Source: Arachidicoccus sp. BS20 (lineage in GTDB: Bacteria > Bacteroidota > Bacteroidia > Chitinophagales > Chitinophagaceae). Taken from it: 64,000 nucleotides of DNA. Location: assembly GCF_001659705.1 (NCBI RefSeq), contig NZ_CP015971.1, positions 744,001-808,000 of the forward strand, read 5' to 3'. A program made the position numbers and the translations under genes. Shown in pieces: positions 54,840 to 57,639 of this stretch (within the stretch, counting starts at the first letter, position 1; each line of letters opens with the position of its first letter). A model generated the notes under the pieces. It saw only the letters and a program-made list of their open reading frames with translations. It did not search any database and was not told the DNA's origin.

Positions 54840-55064
54840 TAAAATCTAAATTGAAATCAACATCAATTTTTTTCTTAGTTCAATACAAGATGCTCAAATA
54901 TATTACCGAGCAAATATTTTGAGTACCCGGTGCGGTTGATCACTTTCAGAATGAACTTGCGAACAGCATCAAAATATGCTGCTTCAAACAACAGTTTCGC
55001 AATAGCTTCATCTTCCTATCAAAAATATTTTTTCTATCTTCGGCTCGATTATTCAAACAACAAT

Positions 55065-56717
55065 ATGAGCAATTTTAATTTTAACGGAGTTTACCCCATC
55101 AGCGAAAAATATCAAAAGAAAGTCGCATACTTTTCAATGGAATTTGCTATTCATCAGCCTTTAAAAATTTATAGCGGCGGACTCGGATTTCTCTCCGGCT
55201 CACACATGCGCAGTGCGTACGAGCTTGGTCAAAATATAATTGGCATCGGTATTCTGTGGAAGTACGGTTATTACGACCAAAATCGTAATGCAGACCAAAC
55301 CATGCAAACTTCATGGCTGGAAAAAACATATTCTTTTCTCGAAGATACAGGCATTAAATTCACGATAAAAATACACGATGCAGATGTTTGGGTAAAAGCC
55401 TTATATCTCAATCCGAAAACGTTCAGAACTGCGCCTATATTTCTACTCACAACCGATTTGCCCGAGAACGATTATGTTTCTCAAACTATCACGCATCGTT
55501 TGTACGATGCCAACGAAGCCACAAAACTGGCGCAATATATTTTGCTCGGCGTGGGCGGCGCAACGTTGCTGGACAAAATAAATTTTGATGCGGAAAAATA
55601 TCATCTCAATGAAGCACACGCTTTGCCGGCGGCTTTTTATTTACTGAACAAATATAAAGATGTTCAAAAACTGAAAGAAAAGCTGGTATTCACAACGCAT
55701 ACCCCGGAAGAAGCAGGCAATGAAAAACATAACATCTATCTCTGCCAGAAAATGTCTTACTTCTGCGGTTTGAGCATTGATGAAGTAAGAAGATTAACCG
55801 GTATTACCGAAGATTCGTTCAATCATTCGCTCGTCGCATTGCGCTTCGCATCCAAAGCAAACGCCGTATCTAAACTTCATGGCGAAGTCTCAAGAAAAAT
55901 GTGGGGAAAATACGAAGGCATTTGCGACATCATTTCTATTACCAATGCGCAAAACTGGACATACTGGGCTGACAAACAAATGTACCGTGCCTTCAACGAA
56001 GGCGATGATTATATCATGGACGACAGAAAAAAATATTTAAAGAAACGTGCTTTTGAAATAGTTGCCGACCAAACAGGGAAAATATTTGACCCGAATATAT
56101 TTACCATCGTTTGGGCGCGCCGTTTTGCAGGCTACAAGCGCGCCGACTTATTGCTGCAAGATGAAGCAAAATTTCAACAACTGATTAGCAATACAAAATA
56201 TCCCGTTCAAATCATCTTTGCCGGGAAGCCGTATCCACTCGATTATTCAGCAATCGGCACTTTCGACAGGCTCGTCAATGAAAGCAAAAAATATAAAAAT
56301 ATTGCAGTACTTGTAGGCTATGAACTCACATTGAGCAAACGCCTGAAACAAGCTGCTGACGTTTGGTTGAACAATCCGCGTGTACCGCGCGAAGCATCCG
56401 GCACAAGCGGAATGACGGCTTCTATGAACGGTGCTGTTAATTTCTCAACCGACGACGGCTGGATTCCCGAGTTCATCAATCACGGGCACAATGGCTTTGT
56501 AGTTCCAAAAGCTGATTATGCAAATATGCACATCCACGAACAGGATGAATATGATGTAGAAACAATATATAAAATTCTGGAAACCGAAATACTTCCGACT
56601 TATTACGACAGATTCGATACCTGGAGACAGATTATGAAAAACGCAATGCGCGACGTACGTTTCCAATTTGACAGCAACCGCATGGCAAGCGAATATTACG
56701 ATTTGCTGTATCGTTAA
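55065..56717 (+). CDS. GT35 alpha-glucan phosphorylase-like protein lacking the PLP lysine
   Basis: A 550-residue protein of the short alpha-glucan phosphorylase group (GlgP-like): VAYFSMEFAIHQPLKIYSGG at the N-terminus, HLNEAHALPAAFYLL, TTHTPEEAGNEKHN and IVWARRFAGYKRADLLLQ. The region that normally carries the pyridoxal-phosphate lysine reads EASGTSGMTASMNGA at residues 443-457, so Thr451 (codon ACG, 56415-56417) replaces the lysine found in rabbit, E. coli and Thermotoga-type enzymes. Without it PLP cannot form the usual Schiff base, and the protein may not be a phosphorylase in the usual sense. The frame opens at 54930; the ATG at 55065 precedes the conserved start. Confidence 0.85.
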   Translation: MSNFNFNGVYPISEKYQKKVAYFSMEFAIHQPLKIYSGGLGFLSGSHMRSAYELGQNIIGIGILWKYGYYDQNRNADQTMQTSWLEKTYSFLEDTGIKFTIKIHDADVWVKALYLNPKTFRTAPIFLLTTDLPENDYVSQTITHRLYDANEATKLAQYILLGVGGATLLDKINFDAEKYHLNEAHALPAAFYLLNKYKDVQKLKEKLVFTTHTPEEAGNEKHNIYLCQKMSYFCGLSIDEVRRLTGITEDSFNHSLVALRFASKANAVSKLHGEVSRKMWGKYEGICDIISITNAQNWTYWADKQMYRAFNEGDDYIMDDRKKYLKKRAFEIVADQTGKIFDPNIFTIVWARRFAGYKRADLLLQDEAKFQQLISNTKYPVQIIFAGKPYPLDYSAIGTFDRLVNESKKYKNIAVLVGYELTLSKRLKQAADVWLNNPRVPREASGTSGMTASMNGAVNFSTDDGWIPEFINHGHNGFVVPKADYANMHIHEQDEYDVETIYKILETEILPTYYDRFDTWRQIMKNAMRDVRFQFDSNRMASEYYDLLYR

Positions 56718-56780
56718 TTCGTGCCGACTGTGGTTTTGGTATGGTTTTTATAGCTTATTTATTAACTAAACTATAAAACT

Positions 56781-57091: not shown

Positions 57092-57106
57092 CTTTGAAAA
57101 AAATAA

Positions 57107-57138
57107 AAGAGTCCACACTTTTTTGGTATGGACTCTTT
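57107..57138 (-). terminator. Terminator of rpsP
   Basis: A 10-bp stem AAAGAGTCCA / TGGACTCTTT; on the minus strand it is followed by TATTTTTTTC. It lies 21 bases after the rpsP stop. Confidence 0.8.
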
Positions 57139-57159
57139 CAATAATTCTTCTGTAAGAAA

Positions 57160-57639
57160 CTATGCTTCCTCCGATGGTGCGGCAGCTTCTTCGCTTGAAG
57201 GAACAGCAGCTTCCGGAGCAGCGCTTTCAACTTTCTTTACCACAGGACGTTTACGACTGTCGCGCTGTTGTTTCTTGTGTTCTTCCCTGCGCTTTGCAAC
57301 TGTTGCTTCATGATTGTTGTACCACTCCTGGAACTTAGTCATAGCTGTTGCTTCGTCAAACAAGCCCAATTTTACACCTCTCAACAAGTGCTTCAAATAC
57401 AATACACCTTTGAAAGATAAAATCTGACGGACAGTATCAGTAGGCTGCGCACCTTTGTGCAACCACTCTAATGCTTTTTGTCTGTCTAACTGGATTGTCG
57501 CCGGAACGGTTAGTGGATTGTAAGTTCCCAACTTTTGGATAAACTTACCATCTCTCGGAGCGCGTGCGTCTGCAACTACGATAAAATAAAATGGACGCTT
57601 CTTGCTTCCGTGTCTCTGTAATCTAATTTTTACTGCCAT
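57160..57639 (-). CDS. rpsP: 30S ribosomal protein S16 with acidic/Ala tail
   Basis: A 159-residue S16. The conserved part is residues 1-90: [40 protein letters not shown] and [18 protein letters not shown]. The last 55-60 residues are a charged, Ala- and Glu-rich tail ([14 protein letters not shown], then [20 protein letters not shown]) that E. coli S16 lacks; such tails are common in Bacteroidota. It binds 16S rRNA in 30S assembly. Usual neighbours rimM, trmD and rplS are absent here. Confidence 0.96.

Follow-up and report, generated by a model that had tools for sequence, protein, structure and literature searches.

The DNA analyzed here, called the window below, is a 64,000-nucleotide stretch of contig NZ_CP015971.1 from Arachidicoccus sp. 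BS20. It contains a gene for a GT35/TIGR02094-type protein, and the features that bear on this protein are collected in Table 1. The ATG used as its start is the one from which relatives align; the frame itself opens earlier, at a GTG at 54930 (595 aa). By eye, the upstream neighbor encodes an ABC-F-type ATPase and the downstream neighbor a ribosomal protein S16-like product, and no alpha-glucan gene was recognized beside this copy. A second terminator-like hairpin (15 pairs, with a T run) is found on the minus strand at 57104-57140, between this gene and a gene at 57160-57639.

Table 1. Features of the phosphorylase-like gene, in window positions
Feature	Position	Strand	Basis
Gene for a GT35/TIGR02094-type protein (550 aa) without the PLP lysine	55065..56717, including stop codon	+	Homology, fold model
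Glycine loop SGGLG, residues 37-41	55173..55187	+	G38, G39, L40, and G41 each in 134/134 clade sequences covering them
RRFAGYKR, residues 352-359, with Arg353 and Lys358	56118..56141	+	R353, Y357, K358, and R359 each in 137/137
Glu420-Ser424, clade specific, start of helix 421-430	56322..56336	+	E420 and S424 in 137/137
Lys428, clade-specific invariant lysine, candidate replacement in the cofactor pocket	56346..56348	+	137/137 clade, 0/52 Lys-type
Motif EASGTSGMTASMNGA, residues 443-457	56391..56435	+	E443-G449 invariant in 137/137
Thr451 at the PLP-lysine position	56415..56417, codon ACG	+	Translation, alignment
Terminator-like hairpin directly 3' of the gene	56719..56744	+	Pattern match alone; 4 in the region versus 2.6 expected

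The protein scores 431.2 bits against TIGR02094 (cut-off, 191.7) and 61.6 bits against the Pfam profile PF00343 (cut-off, 27); the match to PF11897, a domain that longer relatives have, covers 20 residues only and falls below the cut-off. A score of 12.1 bits against the GlgA profile, for which the cut-off is 459, places it outside the GT5 GlgA synthases. An AlphaFold2 model (mean pLDDT, 88.7) has a GT-B fold with phosphorylase-like architecture. Both by sequence (phmmer, 233 bits) and by fold (Z 34.4 and rmsd 2.3 over 532 residues at 31% identity), the best match is the TIGR02094-like glycogen phosphorylase of Segatella copri (PDB 9l6i, 20yr; 852 aa), in which the motifs follow in the same order but ~100 extra residues precede the aligned part and ~140 follow it. 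The classical GlgP and MalP enzymes (TIGR02093; E. coli MalP and rabbit glycogen phosphorylase) share the GT-B fold, the glycine loop, the Arg/Lys phosphate site, and EASGT with the window protein, but they read EASGTGNMK and are ~20% identical to it over the fold. The characterized members of GT35 are alpha-1,4-glucan phosphorylases, according to an excerpt of PMC8950772.

Glycogen phosphorylase is the textbook example of an enzyme that uses PLP. An excerpt of a 2024 review (PMC11046441) names PLP as its prosthetic group and places it, in E. coli MalP, on K646. In the window protein, Thr451 aligns by sequence with the equivalent lysine of the S. copri enzyme, which reads GTSGEKAEMNG at this point. 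The first-pass annotation had claimed that the PLP lysine is absent from a protein that otherwise retains the family motifs and that may represent a distinct family. At the sequence level, the threonine is confirmed as real, and the observation extends to a separate clade: residue 451 is Thr in 124 and Ser in 13 of 137 distinct clade open reading frames, and Lys in none, so that a hydroxyl residue is present in 137/137, versus Lys in 52/52 sampled Lys-type TIGR02094 relatives. At the lysine position of the PLP-dependent phosphorylases, eight residues past the Glu of EASGT, the clade has no lysine. It therefore belongs with TIGR02094/GT35 by profile and fold and outside the PLP-dependent phosphorylases by this lysine. 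Two trivial explanations were rejected, namely, a sequencing error or one-off mutation, because Thr or Ser occupies position 451 throughout the clade, and a local pseudogene, because the frame is intact and the site conserved.

Dereplication at 95% left 131 clade sequences, with 118 Thr and 13 Ser at position 451 and Lys428 in 131/131. The 52 Lys-type sequences comprise 12 first gathered and 40 picked by hand from profile matches, pieces in G436 (C260, C345) and G431 (C52) being left out. Loci were searched for with the patterns EASGTSGM and WK[YF]GYYD; because the first ends at residue 450, residue 451 was not selected, though that motif is favored.

Members of the clade are widespread. Among 39 near genomes including the window's own, 22 match the window protein, and Thr or Ser occupies position 451 in all motif-containing clade copies among the retrieved loci (L029 is a fragment that lacks the motif). 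A clade profile run over 395 genomes, whose phylum was taken as Bacteroidota from named relatives and in each of which at most three candidates were scored, gave 46 matches above 800 bits in 42 genomes; the other listed matches fall below 370 bits, with a single exception at 467 bits. In genomes of named species, the best 80 of at least 588 loci have 72 Thr and 8 Ser at 451 and Lys428 in 80/80, and their record titles point to Bacteroidota (Chitinophagaceae, Chryseobacterium, Pedobacter, Hymenobacter, Algoriphagus, and others), Campylobacterota (metagenome-assembled genomes [MAGs] titled Sulfuricurvum, Sulfurimonas, Sulfurovum, and Arcobacter), and Verrucomicrobiota. Three loci with alphaproteobacterial titles (L038, L039, and L053) were taken as mislabeled bins, since they are 69 to 74% identical to the window protein.

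Some genomes depart from a single intact copy. In the congener G002 (loci L025 and L028), in-frame stops appear to interrupt the gene; G001, G003, G004, and G005 have intact copies. Two clade paralogues occur in each of G007, G013, G135, G226, and G426; the pairs in the first three have one Thr and one Ser at 451, both copies in G226 have Thr, and one copy was read in G426.

Conservation of the active site is strict. Invariant in 137/137 clade sequences are H212, N294, W301, R353, Y357, K358, R359, K388, and E443-G449, and Y419 is present in 135/137; the set includes the phosphate-site Arg and Lys (R353 and K358) and the active-site Glu, Asn, and His (E443, N294, and H212) of the family. We take H212, N294, and W301 to be H377, N484, and W491 of rabbit phosphorylase, R353, Y357, and K358 to be R569, Y573, and K574 (of which Arg569 and Lys574 presumably bind phosphate), E443-G449 to be E672-N678, and Y419 to be Y648. 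With these residues the rabbit enzyme presumably binds glucose and the phosphates of both substrate and PLP. Invariance of the putative glucose- and phosphate-binding residues argues against a dead enzyme. The inactive regulator that the first-pass annotation had offered as one option is accordingly unlikely, and we give very little credence to a pseudoenzyme or noncatalytic glycogen-binding regulator in general. Loss of a residue considered essential speaks for such a protein, but its active-site residues are invariant in 137/137 sequences across three phyla, and in 55 of 58 clade genomes it would have nothing to regulate, no GT35 protein outside the clade having been found there.

Other positions have changed along with residue 451. 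Against the 12 Lys-type sequences used for these comparisons, Asp46 (11/11 of those covering it) is replaced by Ser in the clade, Gly295 by Ala or Ser, Val/Ile296 by Gln, Gly349 by Val, Ala389 by Pro, and His390 (11/12) by Tyr. Three further positions were compared with all 52 Lys-type sequences: position 420 is Glu in 137/137 clade sequences versus mostly Asn or Asp in the Lys-type (46/52; Glu in 1/52), position 424 is Ser in 137/137 versus Gly or Ala in 51/52 and Ser in 1/52, and position 428 is Lys in 137/137 versus Val, Thr, or Ile in 52/52. From this residue comparison, we read the phosphate site as intact and the ring pocket as rebuilt.

Lys428 is the change most directly relevant to the cofactor. 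The alignment runs without a gap from Glu443 back to residue 428, and in the AlphaFold2 model helix 421-430 follows a strand that ends just before Tyr419. According to an excerpt of PMC6086201, the residues of the starch synthase AtSSIV that we place at 419, 420, and 424 stack on or touch adenine; AtSSIV stands outside the alignment, and this correspondence was made by counting residues from its Tyr390. Because these equivalents contact adenine, helix 421-430 would line the pocket. Residue 428 lies one turn past 424 on the same face of the modeled helix. The clade's new lysine is probably in the same pocket as the lost one, in a helix that starts at the pocket. Lys428 is thus a credible candidate for a relocated or pocket-filling lysine, and it supplies a concrete candidate, unnamed in the first-pass annotation, for the alternative lysine at the PLP site which that annotation had set as its refuting condition.

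One way to read Lys428 is that PLP is still used and its anchor has moved, with a Schiff base to this lysine on the neighboring helix rather than to residue 451. We consider this rather unlikely. The exchange is reciprocal, in that 451 is Thr or Ser and 428 Lys in 137/137 sequences and 451 is Lys and 428 Val, Thr, or Ile in 52/52, and the AtSSIV serine placed at 424, one helix turn before 428, contacts the nucleotide via water, as described in part of PMC6086201. However, positions 46, 295, 296, 349, 389, 390, and 420 have changed too, which would be superfluous for a simple relocation. Moreover, an invariant Asp432 follows four residues after Lys428, with which the lysine could pair instead, and a plain Lys428-Asp432 salt bridge is possible.

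GT5 synthases (GlgA) have a tyrosine in the base pocket and no PLP, and we know of no ADP-glucose activity for the clade. It is conceivable, if unlikely, that the clade has returned to nucleotides, so that the PLP pocket binds one and the protein acts as a nucleotide-sugar glucosyltransferase or uses the nucleotide as a noncovalent cofactor. The clade motif GYExxLS resembles that of GT5 synthases, the Gly-Tyr being shared by 3/3 aligned GT5 sequences and the Ser by 1/3, and the window protein has the same fold as these enzymes (PDB 2qzs, 6gne), its model matching ADP-bound E. coli glycogen synthase at Z 30.7, tied with the classical phosphorylases. Nevertheless, Gly418 (3/52) and Ser424 (1/52) also occur in Lys-type sequences, and 2/3 GT5 sequences have Ala rather than Ser. 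In the EX7E motif of nucleotide-sugar GT-B enzymes, the second Glu binds ribose in GT3 and GT4 enzymes; in the clade this Glu is the Thr or Ser at 451, eight residues after E443. Also, 53/58 clade genomes already encode a synthase of the GT5 or GT3 type, and a Lys-type phosphorylase is the nearest protein both in sequence and in fold. On the other side, part of PMC6086201 describes adenine contacts for the AtSSIV Tyr and Ser placed at 419 and 424. An excerpt of PMC11046441 proposes for GT35 a nucleotide-sugar ancestor in which PLP took the place of a nucleoside monophosphate, which makes the reverse step conceivable.

A further reading is a different substrate or reaction. The clade might be a glucanotransferase, a hydrolase, or a phosphorylase of another alpha-glucoside, with residue 451 freed for a new role, and the clade-specific changes in loops 215-219 and 295-297, which we presume to lie near the acceptor side, are in line with this. 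We judge it quite improbable, since a hydrolase would have little reason to keep Arg353 and Lys358 invariant and there is no specific pointer to another substrate.

Phylogenetic analysis bears on the direction of the change. A FastTree tree with 72 clade sequences recovers the clade as monophyletic on a stem of 0.86 substitutions/site with a label of 0.82, and a second tree with 10 clade sequences and a GT5/GT3 outgroup does so with an ultrafast bootstrap label of 61, the support labels of both trees being open to a shift of one node by re-rooting. An interim IQ-TREE tree, made without bootstrap, likewise keeps the clade together. When the root is set with three GT5 and three GT3 sequences, at a distance at which the alignment is poor, the clade nests inside Lys-bearing GT35, which makes loss of the lysine the simpler reading; a primitive branch that predates PLP is disfavored on the same ground. 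The clade would then descend from a PLP-binding GT35 ancestor, and its stem would carry the replacement of Lys451 by Thr or Ser and the gain of Lys at 428, along with changes at 46, 295, 296, 349, 389, 390, 420, and 424. The profile match at 467 bits, L143 (G267), is a short Lys-type GT35 protein from the same phylum. At 575 aa, it is similar in length to the window protein and, as the nearest Lys-type protein by profile score, it stands between the clade and other Lys-type proteins. Nevertheless, L143 has Lys451 and Thr428, the reverse of the clade, and it groups with the clade in the outgroup-rooted tree and with Lys-type sequences in the FastTree tree.

The genomes in which the clade occurs offer a physiological setting. 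At the PF00343 level, 55 of 58 clade genomes yielded no GT35 protein other than clade members, a set that leaves out G002 and G015 with their split matches; the exceptions are G014, G025, and the window's own genome (G000), which has a Lys-type TIGR02094 paralogue (846 aa, EACGTSGMKVLVNG; locus L001, G000:C1:2546550-2548349). Lys-type copies are also present in 2 of 10 Campylobacterota genomes (G431 and G439). The two types seldom co-occur in one genome of the sample, but this rarity is confounded with ancestry, the clade being limited to certain lineages, and we do not claim that Thr-type enzymes have strictly taken the place of Lys-type ones.

Genes for glycogen synthesis are common in the same 58 genomes. 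GlgB exceeds its strict cut-off in 52 of them and GT5 GlgA in 43; a GT3 synthase is present in 10 of the remaining 15, which brings a recognized glycogen synthase to 53 and leaves G027, G112, G147, G154, and G230 with none. Three of these (G112, G147, and G230) have the clade gene without strict GlgB, GlgA, or GlgC or a GT3 synthase. For comparison, 20 listed genomes without a clade-profile match, drawn from a group with 46 more and unmatched to the 58 by ancestry, have GlgB in 13, GlgA in 10, and GT3 in none. Without correction for ancestry, the difference gives a Fisher p of 0.0002 for a recognized synthase (53/58 versus 10/20) and 0.017 for GlgB (52/58 versus 13/20). Glycogen synthesis genes thus occur also in genomes in which no GT35 protein was found, which indicates that a phosphorylase is not obligatory. 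Across the 78 genomes, GT5 synthases (53 genomes over the cut-off) and GT3 synthases (10 genomes) never co-occur.

Alpha-glucan genes lie near some copies of the clade gene. Relatives of GlgA, GlgB, GH13, GH31, GH57, or Pgm flank 20 of the best 80 of at least 588 loci, and by record title such neighbors are found at 10/10 Campylobacterota, 0/8 Verrucomicrobiota, and 10/62 remaining loci of these 80. For instance, with neighbors named by similarity or by eye, a Sulfuricurvum locus (L093) has the order ROK-type kinase, GlgA, GlgB, and clade gene, with a GH13 gene on the opposite strand. In a Sulfurovum locus (L092), a GH57 glucanotransferase-like protein, a GalT-like protein, and a ROK-type kinase lead up to the clade gene, which is followed by PFK, a nucleotidyltransferase/mutase fusion that scores under the family cut-offs, and GH57. 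A Flavobacteriaceae locus (L112) reads GlgB-like protein, GH31, clade gene, and GH13. In an Arcobacter MAG (L100), the order is GlgA-like, ROK-type kinase, GlgA-like, GlgB, Pgm (phosphoglucomutase, opposite strand), and clade gene; a synthase is thus present, and an enzyme that releases G1P would be the missing part. In the literature on Campylobacterota, one paper on a symbiont reports a glycogen phosphorylase gene. A family of ~340-aa proteins (L033 6753-7775 and its equivalents) also accompanies the clade gene at 18 of the 80 loci, mostly directly before it and on the same strand at 15; for its L033 member, Pfam gave no hit at 1e-5.

Taken with the conserved site, we tentatively put first, at somewhat less than even confidence, an active alpha-glucan phosphorylase-like enzyme that has no PLP at the canonical lysine and is PLP free, one of the options in the first-pass annotation. 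Its main and serious rivals are PLP on Lys428 and a nucleotide in the pocket. We predict a GT-B enzyme that processes alpha-1,4-glucans, with glycogen or maltodextrin phosphorylase as the most likely activity. By analogy with phosphorylase structures, Glu443, Asn294, and His212 would hold glucose, and phosphate would be bound by Arg353 and Lys358 together with the Thr447-Ser448 backbone. Excerpts of PMC6411801 and PMC11046441 describe the PLP phosphate of glycogen phosphorylase as a proposed general acid/base beside the substrate phosphate, and PMC6411801 cites studies on pyridoxal-reconstituted enzyme and on phosphate analogues. If the 5'-phosphate has this role, then an enzyme that has the oxyanion site and lacks the anchor lysine could use a second oxyanion. 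In the favored PLP-free phosphorylase, a group not fixed at 451 would take over from the 5'-phosphate as the proton shuttle next to the substrate phosphate; a second bound oxyanion is our first choice for this group, and Lys428 would fill the emptied ring pocket. Retaining phosphorolysis by PLP-free enzymes is known from the trehalose phosphorylases of GT4. These differ from the clade in GT family and substrate, and an excerpt of PMC8950772 lists them beside GT35 for retaining phosphorolysis.

In the open-license PMC literature, we found no GT35 enzyme without the lysine, no PLP-independent glucan phosphorylase, and no report of this clade. A PLP-free or relocated-lysine enzyme, if true, would be to our knowledge the first such case in GT35, and it would bear on how PLP entered the family. 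The origin of PLP in GT35 is still treated as a proposal in the 2024 review (PMC11046441). A widespread clade that has the same active site without the PLP lysine is a natural experiment on this origin. What is new here is the widening of the observation from a single gene to a clade in three phyla and the addition of Lys428 as a testable feature. With about even confidence, we propose that this lineage of GT35 has had its cofactor chemistry undone or rebuilt, either through PLP-free phosphorolysis that relies on an oxyanion or a nucleotide or through PLP on a relocated lysine.

The finding matters for annotation too. In 55 of 58 clade genomes, the only GT35-type protein or proteins found lack the cofactor lysine, so a model of glycogen breakdown built on this annotation would rest on a putative step. 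The clade enzyme probably breaks down glycogen by a chemically different route from that of the known glycogen phosphorylases.
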